Part shown: piece after piece, positions 2,781 through 9,922 of the stretch
Layout of the letters: each line of letters starts with the position of its first letter
Numbering within the stretch: the first letter of the stretch is position 1
Assembly (NCBI GenBank): GCA_903882725.1
Contig: CAIRYF010000162.1
Coordinates: 1 to 10,800 of the forward strand
Direction of reading: 5' to 3'
Length of the DNA stretch: 10,800 nt
Source: an uncultured Simplicispira sp.
GTDB taxonomy: Bacteria; Pseudomonadota; Gammaproteobacteria; Burkholderiales; Burkholderiaceae_C
Program-made: the position numbers and the translations under genes
The notes under the pieces: model-generated
The model's database searches: none
What the model saw: only the letters and a program-made list of their open reading frames with translations
Told to the model about the DNA's origin: nothing

Positions 2781-4420
2781 CGGCGTCGGCCCCACAGCCT
2801 TGGCGGGAACGCCCCGCTTCGTTGTCCTATCCGCGCAGCGCTTTATCTGCCCCCTGGGCCCGCACCGGGCCACGCGCTGCGCCTTGGCACTGGCTGCTAG
2901 CGCTGCTGGCCGGGCTGGCGCACGCGGCCGCGCTGGCGTTTCCGGGCAGCGGCGTGCCGCAGTGGTGGTTGCAACTGGCGGCCTTGCTGGCGCTGGCATG
3001 GCTGGTGCGTCCGGGCACGCCGTGGCGCCGCGCAGCTGGGCTGGGTTGGGTGTTTGCTACTGCGTGGCTGGTGGGCACGTTTTGGTGGCTGTTTATTTCT
3101 ATGCACATTTATGGCGGCTTGGCATCACCGCTGGCCGCTGTGGCGGTGTTGGCACTGGCCGCCTTTTTGGCGCTGTATTACGCCGTCAGTTTGGGGCTTT
3201 TTAGTGCTTTAGCCCATACTCAGCGTGCGCTGTCTGCTCTTATTTTTGCAGCGCTGTGGTTGCTGGCCGAGCTGGCCCGGGGCACTTGGTGGACGGGCTT
3301 TCCGTGGGGTGCCAGCGGCTATGCCCATGTCGATGGCCCGCTGGCGGCGCTGGCGCGCAGCGTGGGCGTGTACGGCATCGCCGCCGTTGCCGCTGCGCTG
3401 GCCATGCTGTTGGCACAACTGCGCCGCAGTGACTTGCACAACCCGCGCGCGTGGGCGCTCCTGCTGGCTGTCGCCGCCGCGCTCACCGGCTTATCGTGGC
3501 AGCGCCAGCAGGCCATTGCCACGCCCAACCCATCCGCTGCTGCACCTCTGACGCTGGCGCTGCTGCAAGGCAGCATTCCACAGGACGAGAAATTTCAGTT
3601 CGGCAGCGGCATCCCGATGGCCTTGCAGTGGTACAGCGACCAACTGCGCAGCGCCAAAGAGCAACTGGTGGTGGCCCCCGAAACGGCCATCGCCGTACTG
3701 CCCCAGCAACTGCCGCCCAGTTATTTGCAGGCCATTGAAGACCAATACACCAGCGGCCCCCAAGCGGCGCTGATCGGCATTCCGCTGGGTGACCTGCGCT
3801 TGGGCTACACCAACTCGGTGCTGGGTTGGCAGCCGGGGCAGAGTGCGCCCTACCGCTACAACAAACAGCATTTGGTGCCGTTTGGCGAATTTATCCCGCC
3901 GTTTTTTCGCTGGTTCACCGACTTGATGAACATCCCGCTGGGCGACTTCAGCCGTGGTGCGCTGGTGCAGCCGCCGTTTGTGTGGCGCGGCGAGCGCCTA
4001 GCGCCCAACATTTGCTACGAAGATTTGTTTGGCGAAGAGCTGGGCGCGCGCTTTGCCGACCCGGCCAACGCGCCGACGGTGTTTGTCAACCTGAGCAACA
4101 TTGCGTGGTTTGGCAACTCGCTGGCCATCGACCAGCACCTGCAAATCAGCCGAATGCGCGCGCTGGAGTTTGAGCGCCCGATGGTGCGCGCCACCAACAC
4201 CGGTGCCAGCGCCATCATCGACCACCAAGGCCAAGTGACGGCGCACTACGAGCATGGCCGCCGCGGCGTGCTGACCGGCACAGTGCAAGGGCGCAGCGGC
4301 GCGCCCACGCCATACGGCGGGGGGGTAGCGCGCTTTGGTCTATGGCCGCTGTGGGGCCTGGGCCTGGGCGTGGTGCTGGCTGCGTTGTGGCGGCGAGCGC
4401 GGCGGGCACGGCAAATTTGA
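2777..4420 (+). CDS. lnt: Apolipoprotein N-acyltransferase
   Basis: Lnt transfers an acyl chain from phospholipid to the N-terminal cysteine of apolipoproteins, the last step of lipoprotein maturation at the periplasmic face of the inner membrane. From TTG 2777 the product has 547 residues. An N-terminal half rich in membrane helices (about 37-245) is followed by a carbon-nitrogen hydrolase domain (about 258-505) and a final helix (521-537). The catalytic triad is visible: Glu302 (VVAPETAIAV), Lys363 (YNKQHLVPFGEF) and Cys413 (PNICYEDLFG). TTG 2777 shares two bases with the corC stop (TTGA), which suggests translational coupling. A longer frame from GTG 2687 would overlap corC by 94 bases and add residues unlike the family. 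The first 35 residues are variable, so the true start could be slightly different. The segment 3193-3254 has unusual base composition and resembles the interspersed repeat. Confidence 0.95.
   Translation: MTASAPQPWRERPASLSYPRSALSAPWARTGPRAAPWHWLLALLAGLAHAAALAFPGSGVPQWWLQLAALLALAWLVRPGTPWRRAAGLGWVFATAWLVGTFWWLFISMHIYGGLASPLAAVAVLALAAFLALYYAVSLGLFSALAHTQRALSALIFAALWLLAELARGTWWTGFPWGASGYAHVDGPLAALARSVGVYGIAAVAAALAMLLAQLRRSDLHNPRAWALLLAVAAALTGLSWQRQQAIATPNPSAAAPLTLALLQGSIPQDEKFQFGSGIPMALQWYSDQLRSAKEQLVVAPETAIAVLPQQLPPSYLQAIEDQYTSGPQAALIGIPLGDLRLGYTNSVLGWQPGQSAPYRYNKQHLVPFGEFIPPFFRWFTDLMNIPLGDFSRGALVQPPFVWRGERLAPNICYEDLFGEELGARFADPANAPTVFVNLSNIAWFGNSLAIDQHLQISRMRALEFERPMVRATNTGASAIIDHQGQVTAHYEHGRRGVLTGTVQGRSGAPTPYGGGVARFGLWPLWGLGLGVVLAALWRRARRARQI
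3193..3254 (-). repeat. Degenerate interspersed repeat copy inside lnt (candidate)
   Basis: Read on the minus strand, this stretch has the block order of the copies at 9763-9827 and 8295-8347: an AAAAATAAGAGC head, AGCGCACG, a spacer, then GGGCTAAAGCAC and a run of A. The match is weaker than for the other copies and needs small gaps. It lies antisense to lnt and encodes residues of about 140-160, at the edge of a membrane helix (ALSALIFAALWLLAEL). The stretch carries locally AT-rich codons such as CTT, ATT, TTT and GCT. Confidence 0.4.
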
Positions 4421-4474: not shown

Positions 4475-4762
4475 ATGACCATCCCTATGCCCGCTCTGGC
4501 CAAGGACACGCGACTGCATATTCGTTGCGATCAAGAGGTGCGCCGTTTGCTCGACAAGGCGGCCGCGTATGCGCACATGAGCGTCTCCGAGTTCGTGCTG
4601 AAAAATGCGGTGGAGCAAGCGCAATCTGTGGTGCAGGCCAACGAGGCCATCACGCTGTCACAGCACGACTTTGCGGCCTTTCTCGATGCGCTGGATGCGC
4701 CGCCCCAACCAGCGCCTGCCTTGCAGCGCGCTTTTGCACGCCACGCCGAGCAAGTGCGCTAA
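4475..4762 (+). CDS. DUF1778 (TacA-like) ribbon-helix-helix antitoxin
   Basis: The product of 95 residues has the layout of DUF1778 antitoxins. An N-terminal ribbon-helix-helix DNA-binding part at about 10-55 (DTRLHIRCDQEVRRLLDKAA, then HMSVSEFVLKNAVEQAQ) is followed by a C-terminal tail with ITLSQHDFAAFLDALD (59-74). In TacA-TacT complexes this tail wraps the acetyltransferase and blocks its active site. A strong AGGAGA (4464-4469) lies 5 bases before the ATG, much better than for most genes here, which fits the need for excess antitoxin. The stop codon is directly followed by the toxin start. Its likely operator is the palindrome at 4422-4435. The module looks accessory: it sits between housekeeping genes and has its own promoter. 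Confidence 0.9.
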   Translation: MTIPMPALAKDTRLHIRCDQEVRRLLDKAAAYAHMSVSEFVLKNAVEQAQSVVQANEAITLSQHDFAAFLDALDAPPQPAPALQRAFARHAEQVR

Positions 4763-5317
4763 ATGCGCTGCCACATTCGTCCCTTGGATCACACGGCGGA
4801 CAGCGCCAATTTTGATTGTGGTGAGAGCGCGCTGAACGCCTATCTGCAACGCTATGCCACGCAAGACATCAAGCGCGGCGTGGCCCGGGCTTTTGTTGCC
4901 ACACCCATCCATCCTGACCAGCCCGACCAGCCCGACCAGCCCGACCAGCCCGATGCTGTCGGCAGCTTCCGCTGCGCAGTGGCTGGTTTTTACACACTGA
5001 GCGCCGCCAGCGTCGCTGCTGAGACGCTGCCTGAGGCATGGCGCAAAAAACTGCCGCGCTATCCGGTGCCAGCCGCCTTGCTTGGGCGCTTGGCAGTGGC
5101 GCAGTCAGCGCAAGGGCAGGGATTGGGCTCGATTTTGCTGGCCGATGCGTGCCAGCGCGTGGCGGCGGTGAGCCAAACCTTGGCGGTGGTCGCCATCATG
5201 GTGGACGCGCAATCGCCCCAAGCGGCGGCCTTTTATCAGCACTTTGGCTTTGTGCAACTGCCCGGCCAGTCCAGCCGCTGGATGTTGCCACGCTCGCACT
5301 TTGCCAGCTTGGCTTGA
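4763..5317 (+). CDS. TacT-like GNAT acetyltransferase toxin
   Basis: The product of 184 residues begins directly after the antitoxin stop (TAA then ATG, no gap), so translation is probably coupled. It has the family marks of GNAT toxins that acetylate the amino group of aminoacyl-tRNA and stop translation. FDCGESALNAYLQRYATQD lies at 17-35, VAGFYTLSAASV at 73-84, and PRYPVPAALLGRLAV at 98-112. The acetyl-CoA loop QGQGLG is at 117-122, and AFYQHFGF at 156-163 has a tyrosine (Tyr158) at the usual catalytic position. All key motifs are intact, so it is probably active. Oddly, the loop between RAFVATP and the next strand contains four PDQ units plus a partial one (51-64), encoded by a 9-nt tandem repeat; relatives usually have a short loop there. 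The tRNA target cannot be predicted. Confidence 0.9.
   Translation: MRCHIRPLDHTADSANFDCGESALNAYLQRYATQDIKRGVARAFVATPIHPDQPDQPDQPDQPDAVGSFRCAVAGFYTLSAASVAAETLPEAWRKKLPRYPVPAALLGRLAVAQSAQGQGLGSILLADACQRVAAVSQTLAVVAIMVDAQSPQAAAFYQHFGFVQLPGQSSRWMLPRSHFASLA
4913..4953 (+). repeat. 9-nt tandem repeat (CCCGACCAG) in the toxin gene
   Basis: Four units (the first with one T for C) and a partial fifth run in frame and encode PDQ-PDQ-PDQ-PDQ-PD. The near identity of the units suggests recent slippage expansion. Gain or loss of units keeps the frame and would change only loop length. Confidence 0.9.
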
Positions 5318-5814: not shown

Positions 5815-8133
5815 TTACAGCGCGGACAGTGCGCCATGCACCTCGTCCGTGGTGAGGATTTCGGTCATCACCACCGGCGCTTTGCCGGGCGCGTACAGCA
5901 CGTACACCGGCACGCCGCTGCGCCCCAACTGCGCCAGCGCGGCGGTGATGTGCGGGTCGCGCCGCGTCCAGTCGGCGCGCAGCAGGGCGACGTTGCGCGC
6001 GGCAAAGCCCTCCAGCACGGCGGCGTTGGCCAGCGTGGTGCGCTTGTTGTATTGGCAGGTGACGCACCAGGCGGCGGTGAAATCGACAAACACCGGCTGG
6101 CCGCTGGCGTTCAGCTCGGCCACGCGCTCGGCAGACCAAGGTTGCCAGGCCGTGGTGGAGGGAGAAGTGCTGGCGGCCAGTGCCGGCATTTCCATCGCTT
6201 GAGTAACATTTTGGCCGATAGCCCCCGCCAGCCATGCGGTGATAGCTAGCAAAACAGTAGCAATCACCCAGCGCGCACGTCCGCGCAGTGTCAGCGCCCA
6301 GACCACGCCACTGCCGGCCACCAGCAGCACCAGCAGCGCACCCGCGCCGTCGATGCCGCTTTGCTGGCCCAGCACCCACACCAGCCAAGCCACGGTGGCA
6401 AACATCGGAAACGCCATGCCACGGCGGAAAGTGTCCATCCACGCGCCGGGGCGCGGCAGCCAGCCGACCACCGCCGGCACCCAACTGGCCGCCAGATACG
6501 GCAAGGCCATGCCCACGCCCAAGGCGACAAACACCAGCAGCGCCTGCGCCGTCGGCATCTCAATGGCAAAACCCAGCGACGCGCCCATGAACGGCGCGGT
6601 ACACGGCGAGGCAATGGCCACCGCCAAGATGCCGGTCAAAAAGGCGTCGGCGGCGGGGTGGCGCAGTTGCAGCGCCGCCAAGCGCCCAGGGGCAAACTGG
6701 CCAAACTCAAACACCCCGGCCAGGTTCAGGCCAATCAGCGTAAACAGCGCCGCCAGCGCCGCCACCACCGCCGGCGACTGCAGCTGAAAACCCCAGCCCA
6801 GCTGCTCGCCCGCCGCGCGCAAGCCCAGCAGCAAACCGCCCAGCGCCACAAACGACAGCACCACGCCAGCGGTATAGGCCAGCCCGGCTTGGCGGTGCGC
6901 GCGCCGGTTGCTGCCGTGTTGGGCAAAGCCCATCACTTTGATGGCCAGCACCGGAAAGACGCAGGGCATCAAATTCAAAATCAAACCGCCCAGCAAGCCG
7001 CCCAGCAGCGCCGTGATCCACACCCGGGTGCTGACGCTGTTAGCGCTGTTAGCGCTGTTGGCTGCTGCGGACGCCGACGCCGACTCTGGCGGCGGGCTCA
7101 GGGCGCGGTTGGCCTCTAGCGCAGCGGCCAGCGCGGGCGAGACCACTGCGCCGGGAGCAGCGGCGCTCCAACGGCCTTCGACCGTGGCCACGGTGCGCCA
7201 CGCGCGCGCGCCGTCTGCTGTCTGCGCCGTAGGGGTCTTGGGCATCTTGGGCGGCGCGGCCAACGCCAGCACCAACGGCAGGTGGCTCAGGCTCTCGCCG
7301 CGCTCGGACGACAGCGGCATGGTGGCCGTCCACACGTCGCCCTGCCATGCCTGCGTCCAGCCGCTGCCCGATTCGGCGGCGTGCTCGATGGTGGCCGGTG
7401 CCTCAGAAAACAGTTGCAGCTGCTGGCCGCGTGCCGCAGCTGGCAAACCGGGCACGCTGATGTGCAACTGCACGCCGTCGGCATCGACACGCGCGCGGCT
7501 GTCGCCACTGAGGGGCTGGGGCTGCGCGGCCTGCGCAGCCGCAAAAGCGCCGGCGTGCAAAGCGGTAGAGCCGCGCAGCGGCAGTTGCAGCGTGAAGTGG
7601 CCTTCTTCGGGGATGCATTCAAGTTTGCAGGCCAGCCACGTAGCGTGCAGGCGCACCGTCAGACTGTCAGCCGCGCTACCCACGCCACCCGCCCCGGCCC
7701 GCAGCGGCGCTTTGAAATTAGGTGCCAATTGCAGCACCACCGGCAGCAGCACCGTGCCGTCGTAGCCGTAGTTGGCCATGTTGTCGACGCGGATTTTTTG
7801 CGGCACCGGCCAAGCGATATCGCCGACATCTGCGCCCTCGGGCAGCGTCCAGGTCAGCTCGGTTGGCAGGCCCGAGTCACCGGGGTTTTTCCAATAGGTG
7901 TGCCAGCCCGGCTGGTGCGTTATTTGCAGCCCCAGCCACAGCGGCTGGCCCGGTGCCACGCCCTGCGGTGCGTGCGCCACCAGCTCGGCGCGCACACGCG
8001 GCGTGCTGAACACGCTGCTGGCTGCAACGGCATCGTTTTTAAGGCCAAATTGGGCGCTAACGCCCGTGGACAAAGCGCTAGCAGCTATTAAAAATAGAGT
8101 AGCCAGAAGGCGTTGAAAGAAGCGGTGCGACAT
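5815..8133 (-). CDS. dsbD: ScsB/DsbD-type transmembrane thiol:disulfide reductase
   Basis: This family carries electrons from cytoplasmic thioredoxin across the inner membrane to periplasmic partners. From ATG 8133 the product has 772 residues: a signal peptide (1-27, cleavage likely after GVSA), a large periplasmic domain with HTYWKNPGDSGLPTE (78-92) and a Cys169/Cys173 pair in WLACKLECIPEEG, and a linker rich in Ala, Ser and Asn (350-368). Then comes a membrane domain with about eight helices (371-640) holding the redox cysteines Cys391 (NLMPCVFPVLA) and Cys511 (ASPCTAPFMG), and a C-terminal thioredoxin domain with CVTC at 690-693. The long N-terminal domain resembles ScsB more than E. coli DsbD, so copper tolerance or cytochrome c maturation are both possible roles. 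An upstream ATG at 8250 would hide the signal peptide behind 39 atypical residues and is rejected. The signal peptide and the last helix are encoded by repeat-like DNA. Confidence 0.93.
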   Translation of the reverse strand: MSHRFFQRLLATLFLIAASALSTGVSAQFGLKNDAVAASSVFSTPRVRAELVAHAPQGVAPGQPLWLGLQITHQPGWHTYWKNPGDSGLPTELTWTLPEGADVGDIAWPVPQKIRVDNMANYGYDGTVLLPVVLQLAPNFKAPLRAGAGGVGSAADSLTVRLHATWLACKLECIPEEGHFTLQLPLRGSTALHAGAFAAAQAAQPQPLSGDSRARVDADGVQLHISVPGLPAAARGQQLQLFSEAPATIEHAAESGSGWTQAWQGDVWTATMPLSSERGESLSHLPLVLALAAPPKMPKTPTAQTADGARAWRTVATVEGRWSAAAPGAVVSPALAAALEANRALSPPPESASASAAANSANSANSVSTRVWITALLGGLLGGLILNLMPCVFPVLAIKVMGFAQHGSNRRAHRQAGLAYTAGVVLSFVALGGLLLGLRAAGEQLGWGFQLQSPAVVAALAALFTLIGLNLAGVFEFGQFAPGRLAALQLRHPAADAFLTGILAVAIASPCTAPFMGASLGFAIEMPTAQALLVFVALGVGMALPYLAASWVPAVVGWLPRPGAWMDTFRRGMAFPMFATVAWLVWVLGQQSGIDGAGALLVLLVAGSGVVWALTLRGRARWVIATVLLAITAWLAGAIGQNVTQAMEMPALAASTSPSTTAWQPWSAERVAELNASGQPVFVDFTAAWCVTCQYNKRTTLANAAVLEGFAARNVALLRADWTRRDPHITAALAQLGRSGVPVYVLYAPGKAPVVMTEILTTDEVHGALSAL
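6206..6262 (-). repeat. Interspersed repeat copy inside dsbD, encoding a transmembrane helix
   Basis: Read on the minus strand: GCTACTGTTTTG, CTAGCTATC, CGCATGG, GGGGGCTATCGGCC, AAAATG. It aligns with the copy at 8037-8104 in the same reading frame with a one-codon gap. Shared blocks are GCTACT, the T-rich run, TAGCT, CGC, GGGC/GGGGGC and CCAA. It encodes about residues 625-643 (ATVLLAITAWLAGAIGQNV), the last membrane helix before the thioredoxin domain. Confidence 0.6.
7036..7062 (-). repeat. 9-nt tandem repeat in the dsbD linker
   Basis: Three units of GCTGTTAGC (plus-strand reading, the third with one change) encode Asn-Ser-Ala repeats at residues 359-366 of the DsbD-like protein. This is the flexible linker between the periplasmic domain and the first membrane helix, where length variation should be tolerated. 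Confidence 0.85.
8037..8104 (-). repeat. Interspersed repeat copy inside dsbD, encoding the signal peptide
   Basis: Read on the minus strand: GGCTACTCTATTTTTAATAG, CTGCTAGCGCTTTG, GGGCGTTAGCGCCC, AATTTGGCC. It has the block order of the intergenic copies and includes codons that are rare in the rest of the gene (CTA, TTA, ATA, ACT). It encodes residues of about 10-32, the hydrophobic core and cleavage site of the signal peptide. It also contains a small perfect hairpin, GGGCG-CTAA-CGCCC (8052-8065). Confidence 0.65.
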
Positions 8134-8269: not shown

Positions 8270-8298
8270 TTTATGGCCCAGCACCGATGGATAGCCAA
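8270..8298 (-). promoter_or_regulatory. Possible dsbD promoter
   Basis: On the minus strand TTGGCT (8298-8293) and CATAAA (8275-8270) are spaced by 17 bases; each matches four of six consensus positions. The -35 overlaps the T-rich tail of the repeat copy at 8295-8347, so the repeat may contribute part of the promoter. Confidence 0.3.
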
Positions 8299-8347
8299 AA
8301 CAGCCTCTGGCCCTTGTGCAAGCTGCGGTTGTAGCTAAGTTTTTTGC
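8295..8347 (-). repeat. Interspersed repeat copy downstream of cbpM
   Basis: Read on the minus strand: GCAAAAAACTTAGCTACAAC, CGCAGCTTGCAC, AAGGGCCAGAGGCTGTTTTG. Over 43 positions it aligns without gaps to the copy at 9763-9827 with roughly 30 identities, including TAGCTA, CGCAG, AAGGGC and TTTT. It begins 10 bases after the cbpM stop. A short GCAGC/GCTGT stem followed by TTTT could also serve as a weak terminator for cbpA-cbpM. Confidence 0.7.
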
Positions 8348-8356
8348 GTGCCGCTG

Positions 8357-9762: not shown

Positions 9763-9827
9763 GGCTATTTTTTGCTATTGAATAAATAGCTATAAGCGCA
9801 GGTATCTAAAGGGCTACAGTCATTTTT
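9763..9827 (+). repeat. Interspersed repeat copy between cbpA and glmS (best copy)
   Basis: The blocks are GGCTATTTTTTGCTATTG, AATAAATAGCTATAAGCGCA, GGTATCTAAAGGGCTACAG, TCATTTTT. It is the most AT-rich stretch of the window and shares the ordered blocks TAGCTA, AGCGCA, AAGGGCTA and TTTT with four other places. It lies between the divergent cbpA and glmS genes, so it may carry promoter elements or be neutral. From memory similar elements are frequent in Comamonadaceae genomes, but I cannot check this here. Confidence 0.7.
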
Positions 9828-9840
9828 CATCAAAATGATG
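9828..9840. other. Small inverted repeat upstream of glmS
   Basis: CATCA-AAA-TGATG is a perfect 5-bp inverted repeat with a 3-base centre, directly after the interspersed repeat and 83 bases before the glmS start. It could be a short operator or chance. Confidence 0.2.
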
Positions 9841-9922
9841 CGGCTATTGGACTTGGCCCGCTGTCGGCGGAGATCTGAGCCAACCCCCTACCATGGCGCC
9901 AATCTTTGATTGGAGCTTGAAT

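Follow-up and report, generated by a model that had tools for sequence, protein, structure and literature searches.

A 65-bp DNA motif abundant in Comamonadaceae lies in frame at two sites within dsbD

The window analysed here is a stretch of 10,800 nt that makes up one 10.8-kb contig (CAIRYF010000162.1) of an uncultured Simplicispira sp. genome (GCA_903882725.1; 67.5% complete, 2.02 Mb), the host being a Comamonadaceae relative of Simplicispira psychrophila (best DsbD segment 82% identical). Its dsbD gene (5818..8133, minus strand) contains two copies of a motif of about 65 bp that is abundant in the host genome and in many relatives: copy 1 lies over the N-terminal leader of DsbD (site 1; 8035..8106, minus strand) and copy 2 over the last hydrophobic helix before the thioredoxin domain (site 2; 6196..6267, minus strand), both in phase 0. 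These two segments are very probably a DNA motif that was written in place into the coding sequence. The wider explanation, that an abundant double-stranded motif is kept at the DNA level and written in place by a drive resembling that of uptake signal sequences (USS) and DNA uptake sequences (DUS), we hold at slightly below even odds (about 0.45).

Motif copies at two sites of dsbD

The dsbD product (772 aa; start taken at 8133, within an open reading frame (ORF) that stays open to 8250) is composed of the Pfam domains DsbD_N (residues 60–183), DsbD_TM (375–585) and Thioredoxin_7 (662–749), and is 97% identical over residues 271–772 to the DsbD of a Giesbergeria bin. Located between DsbD_TM and Thioredoxin_7 is site 2 (residues ~622–646), predicted from the sequence to form a membrane helix; site 1 is likewise predicted to encode a signal peptide.

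Two profiles were built with dsbD excluded from training: a 72-column profile from 165 copies in G004, a relative within the host's GTDB genus whose genome is a single contig, and a second from 35 copies in the window's own genome. The first scores 65.8 at site 1 and 32.8 at site 2, against −36.9 for the next best sense position in dsbD, and the second 69.0 and 27.0, against −30.1. A preliminary description of the window, made from its letters, had reported two repeat copies within dsbD sharing one reading frame, an observation that is confirmed; its interpretation is partly supported, as set out below. The places it gave (8037–8104 and 6206–6262) are right, with both copies running slightly further at their ends, and the one-codon gap it placed between them disappears in the motif register, which aligns the copies gap-free, so that the two GCT ACT pairs it had matched are not homologous positions. 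Sites 1 and 2 agree at 38 of their 72 bases; the closest other in-frame stretch agrees with copy 1 at 30.

The AT-rich codons noted at both segments do set them apart from the rest of the gene (GC content 0.47 at site 1 and 0.53 at site 2, against 0.69 in the remainder of dsbD). Site 1 reads CTG GCT ACT CTA TTT TTA ATA GCT GCT AGC GCT ..., and among the 748 in-frame 72-nt windows of dsbD, 6 are as AT-rich as site 1 and 26 as site 2. Chance combined with codon bias was ruled out as the source of the site scores by a synonymous-recoding null, in which none of 20,000 recodings (protein fixed, codon usage of the window) reached either score (z-scores of 5.5 and 4.9).

Orthologues carry the same signature at fixed places. 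After removal of 13 duplicates, 110 dsbD loci yielded 97 distinct genes, in which, at a profile score of at least 15, the motif is present at site 1 in 53, at site 2 in 25, at both in 21 and at neither in 40; its phase is identical in 53/53 site-1 and 25/25 site-2 bearers. Scored as absent was the site-1 motif of G028, which is out of phase (25.6 at +28), and the rows of G009 and G019, truncated at the start, cannot show site 1. Over all 110 loci the site-1 scores split cleanly, with one intermediate value (7.0), and the site-2 scores less so, nine loci (seven distinct) having values between 4 and 13. The motif is carried by Acidovorax, Simplicispira, Giesbergeria, Rhodoferax, a Polaromonas and an Ottowia bin, among others; it is missing from both sites in the Variovorax, Hydrogenophaga and Caenimonas rows and in most Ramlibacter and Comamonas rows.

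In the 53 site-1 bearers, isoleucine is encoded by ATA in 70 of 99 cases within site 1 and in 60 of 1088 outside it, and motif positions repeatedly hold the rare codons ATA and GCT. When rows were thinned to below 80% identity, identical residues at site 1 shared the same codon in 63% of pairs among 27 bearers against 39% among 28 non-bearers, and those at site 2 in 61% (19 bearers) against 46% (34 non-bearers); over the remaining gene the corresponding values were 60% against 55% for site 1 and 59% against 57% for site 2.

On a DsbD tree of 96 rows (one more was omitted as too short) from which the site columns had been excluded, 12 changes are needed at site 1 and 17 at site 2; therefore both sites came or went repeatedly at fixed places. 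Genomes with the motif at site 1 (21) have 15–224 core matches and those without it (7) have 0–15. Three motif-poor members of the genus, G002, G005 and G008, group in the 96-row tree with Extensimonas, a site-2 bearer (support 90), and in a tree of 28 genomes branch apart from the rest of the genus at low support; they may have lost the motif family or never have acquired it. A lineage 'dialect' at dsbD, judged by eye from the consensus of G035, G001, G011, G000 and G004, was discarded, as the window copy departs from its genome at the telling position.

Motif-free orthologues also bear on how the copies came to lie there. At site 2 the non-bearers have a similar final helix in GC-rich codons, and the span is 41–42 aa long in 23 of the 25 genes with the motif and in 50 of the 65 without it, with no added length; at site 1 the non-bearers have leaders in other codons. 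Since the leader and the same helix exist in motif-free orthologues and the length of site 2 is constant, the motif appears to have overwritten the hydrophobic segments and not to have supplied them, contrary to the earlier proposal that an inserted repeat had provided them. Similar residues under unrelated codons, the pattern named in advance as a sign of ordinary protein conservation, are indeed found at site 2 in many motif-free genes; yet in 25 genes the motif overlies that conservation.

The motif family in the host genome and its relatives

The motif core, AATAGCTGCTAGCGC, has 108 matches with at most two mismatches in the 2.02-Mb host genome, against 3 for the pattern read backwards, and the consensus common to the copies reaches well past this core. 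G004 holds 195 distinct copies in 1.2 Mb (profile trained on the window's own genome, score of at least 14) with the consensus GCTATtaAATtaATAGCTGCTAGCGCTTgatggatAAGCGCTAGAGGCcaATTTtaCttaAAAT; this count, and that of the 50 copies inside its genes, include its two dsbD sites. The information in the G004-trained profile (62.7 bits) is spread across about 65 columns, and 258 positions in G004 score at least 15 over both strands, a count that takes in the 165 training copies, whereas the reversed sequence has 1. In the reversed 1.2 Mb (both strands, ~2.4 million positions), two positions exceed 8, with a maximum of 17.0. Iteration of the profile on G004 was dropped, as it drifted to a palindromic subtype counted on both strands; this near-perfect palindrome (AATAGCTTCTAGCGCTT...AAGCGCTAGAAGCTATT) stands beside the asymmetric motif in the G004 stretches L166–L225.

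The core was found in 42 of 120 genomes examined. Within the genus its counts range from 0 (G002 and G008) and 4 (G005) to 192, so that the motif is nearly absent from some relatives, and in other genera of the family they reach 352. This highest count belongs to G064, which also has 20 Y1_Tnp matches, other core-rich genomes having one or none. An exact core match occurs in 67 IMG/VR viral contigs (L292–L358), representing either phage DNA or host flank. Compared copy by copy, 36 of 57 host copies had flanking sequence that could be matched, in many cases weakly, in the G004 stretches; seven intragenic host copies, including both dsbD sites, occupy the corresponding position in G004 (two placed by one flank), and others are absent there, for example an inverted pair in L039 for which both flanks were found.

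A motif pair matching part of the sequence has been listed before. Among potential novel motifs reported in 2017, one paper gives the pairs GCTTAT(N)5AAGCG, with 114 copies in Acidovorax ebreus TPSY, and ATAGCT(N)22CAAAAG, with 125 copies in Polaromonas naphthalenivorans CJ2, the most motif pairs (140) being listed for Rhodoferax ferrireducens T118 (PMC5217627). The first pair fits the motif core (GCGCTTatTgaaTAAGCGC in G011); membership of the second is unsure because it shares only ATAGCT, its other half and its spacing misfitting the consensus. In the sections that deal with them, the pairs resemble the dsbD motif in coming from the same bacterial family, in being mostly intergenic and in rarely lying between divergent genes; they are treated there as two pentamer/hexamer pairs, against one 65-bp motif here, and those sections are silent on coding frames, dsbD, spacing and origin. 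Four 14-mers of the core were found in none of the open-licence PMC papers searched.

Placement in G004 was assessed with gene limits from a simple ORF caller (1024 genes, 88% coding). Of its 195 copies, 91 are intergenic and 50 intragenic, while 42 overlap the 3' end of a gene and 12 a 5' end. Copies outside genes favour convergent neighbours, with 40 convergent, 94 co-directional and 11 divergent placements among 79, 394 and 123 available gaps of at least 50 bp, respectively. Over the 1.2 Mb the copies are more evenly spaced than in a null in which intergenic gaps and genes were drawn at observed rates (2000 draws): the coefficient of variation of inter-copy gaps is 0.774 against 0.934 (p 0.002), 10 gaps are below 1 kb where 22 would be expected (p 0.001), and the longest measures 20.7 kb, the null giving 33 kb (p 0.001). 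Successive 400-kb blocks hold 66, 64 and 65 copies, no 20-kb bin is empty (variance/mean 0.51), and 1 of 192 neighbour gaps is shorter than 500 bp.

Of the intragenic copies 26 are sense and 24 antisense, and they use a restricted set of frames, with 19 copies in sense phase 0, 22 in antisense phase 1, 7 in sense phase 2 and 2 in others. Seven of the 19 sense phase-0 copies encode hydrophobic segments, two of them in dsbD; without dsbD, 5 of 17 do so, against 8.4% of random segments (n = 4000). One of these five encodes the N-terminus of an SLT_2 transglycosylase, upstream of the domain, and others lie in DsbB, YhhN and an FtsX-type permease; the copy in a MatE transporter gene is antisense. 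The earlier expectation that other hydrophobic segments would carry the profile in this frame is borne out to that extent, even though most intragenic copies (40 of 50) are in non-hydrophobic places and 10 of 50 in hydrophobic ones. In the dsbD phase the consensus reads like xLFLIAASAxx, which suggests that hydrophobic segments tolerate the motif well.

Two comparisons of intragenic copies address insertion. Against G002, which is repeat-poor (3 sites scoring at least 14 in the 1.07 Mb compared), 14 of the 50 intragenic G004 copies have a match across the motif. Four are gap-free and nine have smaller gaps (net differences over these pairs of −9 to +11 aa), three of the nine being less than 50% identical and possibly not orthologues; the remaining pair is taken up below. 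Against solved homologues, an insertion of at least 15 aa was seen in none of six proteins, five of which are among the 14. There is no gap in the RsmB-like protein or CoaBC, one of 3–4 aa in ornithine carbamoyltransferase and 8 aa more in the RumA-like protein; in the RlmL-like protein and RarA the loop is shorter in G004 than in the solved homologue.

Mechanism and rival explanations

Inside genes, the motif would arise mostly by base changes in place, as has been described for USS; in dsbD it would have been written over a pre-existing N-terminal leader and the last membrane helix, and biased uptake and recombination of motif-bearing DNA would keep the copies. Known uptake sequences, the USS of Pasteurellaceae and the DUS of Neisseriaceae, provide the closest likeness: in the passages that treat them they number hundreds of copies, lie inside and between genes in restricted frames, form inverted pairs at gene ends and are not insertions. 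The same gap logic as used here led to the conclusion that 'USS are not insertions' (PMC1626085), and even spacing is discussed, with one account citing Karlin for it and doubting its degree (PMC1939737); DUS have been argued to arise by recombination (PMC2397512), and PMC2755013, PMC2346458 and PMC3630211 are of side interest. Three of these traits are found here, namely genome-wide over-representation, intragenic origin without insertion (with one exception, and with low-identity pairs) and even spacing. Origin by substitution, use of either strand, regular spacing and long persistence have all been described or discussed for USS, and a USS/DUS-like drive appears to be the likeliest mechanism, and a chromosome-organising binding site a less likely one. 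That the mechanism is the uptake of motif-bearing DNA itself is a tentative proposal, somewhat weaker than the explanation as a whole.

Uptake signals are treated in the literature consulted as a matter of two families, and the present motif, known here from its sequence alone, belongs to a different one, Comamonadaceae. With similar reserve we suggest that many Comamonadaceae may possess an unusually long, independent signal of the uptake/recombination type, present about every 6 kb, that spreads by in-place rewriting and, across genera, sets rare codons and residues in the signal peptides and membrane helices of conserved genes such as dsbD. If so, a third and longer uptake signal would extend over many genera, allowing molecular drive and selection to be tested afresh, with motif-rich and motif-poor species of one GTDB genus as natural contrasts. 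A signal at the DNA level would then determine codon choice, and in part the residues, in a secretion leader and a membrane helix, with consequences for the reading of conservation in such proteins as protein function.

Several results weigh against this explanation. The motif, at about 65 bp, is far longer and more degenerate than the 9–12-bp cores of known USS and DUS (PMC1626085, PMC1939737, PMC2397512, PMC2346458, PMC3630211, in the parts describing those cores), so that this trait is missing, and it is enriched outside genes. The even spacing rests on one genome. The split of site 1 by family abundance is clear but amounts to just two or three independent tree changes, and site-2 presence shows no link with family abundance (p 0.19). 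ComEC was discarded as a marker, since repeat-rich and repeat-poor genomes both have it. When sliding windows were ranked by codon sharing, 35 of 147 lay above site 1 and 46 of 144 above site 2; the sites are not singled out because GC-rich codon bias lifts sharing everywhere. The aligned N-terminus is most commonly 30 aa in site-1 bearers and 26 aa in non-bearers, with overlapping ranges, a difference smaller than the ~22 aa expected from insertion; the length of site 1 may have changed slightly. In one of the 14 comparisons with G002 (query q14), 17 aa are missing from G002 over two gaps, as after an insertion, and several of the 14 pair proteins that are less than 60% identical.

Two rivals survive about equally well, and both seem unlikely. 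According to the first, a mobile repeat of the miniature inverted-repeat transposable element (MITE) or repetitive extragenic palindrome (REP) kind, moved for example by a Y1 transposase of the REP-associated tyrosine transposase (RAYT) type, inserted twice in dsbD, the copies being domesticated as a signal peptide and a helix. The many dispersed copies, their inverted-repeat character and mostly intergenic location (91 of 195), the 17-aa gap of query q14 and the single Y1_Tnp genes common in the family would all suit such an element; the unchanged length of site 2, the lack of an insertion-sized gap at most testable intragenic copies and the even spacing do not. Dependence on a RAYT is not supported, as G003 (99% complete) has 128 core matches and no Y1_Tnp match (PF01797), and the repeat-poor G002, G005 and G008 have 3–4 such matches. 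Rickettsia palindromic elements are palindromic repeat DNA translated within proteins, and are insertions that lengthen the protein, unlike the motif at site 2. Another candidate, the betaproteobacterial repeat element (BRE; 75–91 bp, GC 64–79% with a mean of 69%, often tandem), likewise has some copies in coding sequence and occurs in Comamonadaceae too (PMC3110155). By that description it is set apart from the motif, whose dsbD copies have a GC content of 0.47–0.53 and which has a near lack of closely spaced neighbours in G004.

The second of these rivals is a chromosome-organising or other putative protein-binding site, held at regular distances by selection. It is favoured by the even spacing with every 20-kb bin of the 1.2 Mb occupied, by the about equal strand use inside genes and by conservation of sequence rather than of stem pairing, and disfavoured by the strong degeneracy of the copies and by having no known binding protein here.

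Less probable again is an RNA hairpin, such as a bidirectional terminator, that lies in genes by accident. Its palindromic core, the 42 copies at 3' gene ends and the preference for convergent neighbours fit such a role. Covariation in the stem is weak, exceeding that of shuffles at 3 of 17 pairs (z-scores of 3.6, 2.9 and 3.0) and not at the others. Against a hairpin, 25 of the 35 copies from the window's genome have a G–G mismatch in the main stem, and 50 copies in G004 lie inside genes. Ordinary protein conservation with codon bias and no DNA motif at the dsbD sites is highly improbable, the similar site-2 residues of motif-free genes being outweighed by the recoding null, the presence/absence split (clear at site 1 and mostly so at site 2) and the rare ATA and GCT codons at motif positions.

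Other features of the window

Beyond the dsbD pair, the window has at least two motif copies. One (3187..3258, minus strand; 36.9 with the G004-trained and 32.5 with the own-genome-trained profile) is antisense in lnt, the gene for apolipoprotein N-acyltransferase, whose product has LNT_N and CN_hydrolase domains; it is the third intragenic copy of the window and covers a hydrophobic part of that product. The other, intergenic (9768..9839, plus strand; 62.1 by either profile), is positioned between a DnaJ-type gene and a divergent ORF starting near 9893, a divergent setting that is rare in G004 (11 of 145 copies outside genes). Upstream of dsbD is a weak, degenerate motif-like stretch (8285..8356, minus strand; scores of 5.8 and 23.5 with the G004-trained and own-genome-trained profiles, respectively). 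An Rfam scan of the window gave two weak matches, both away from the motif and far below the gathering score.

Located at 4475–5317 on the plus strand is a gene for a TacA1-type antitoxin followed directly by a GNAT acetyltransferase gene, a layout that we take to resemble a TacAT-like toxin–antitoxin pair. Within the GNAT gene is a 9-bp in-frame tandem repeat of the CCCGACCAG type (4904–4953).

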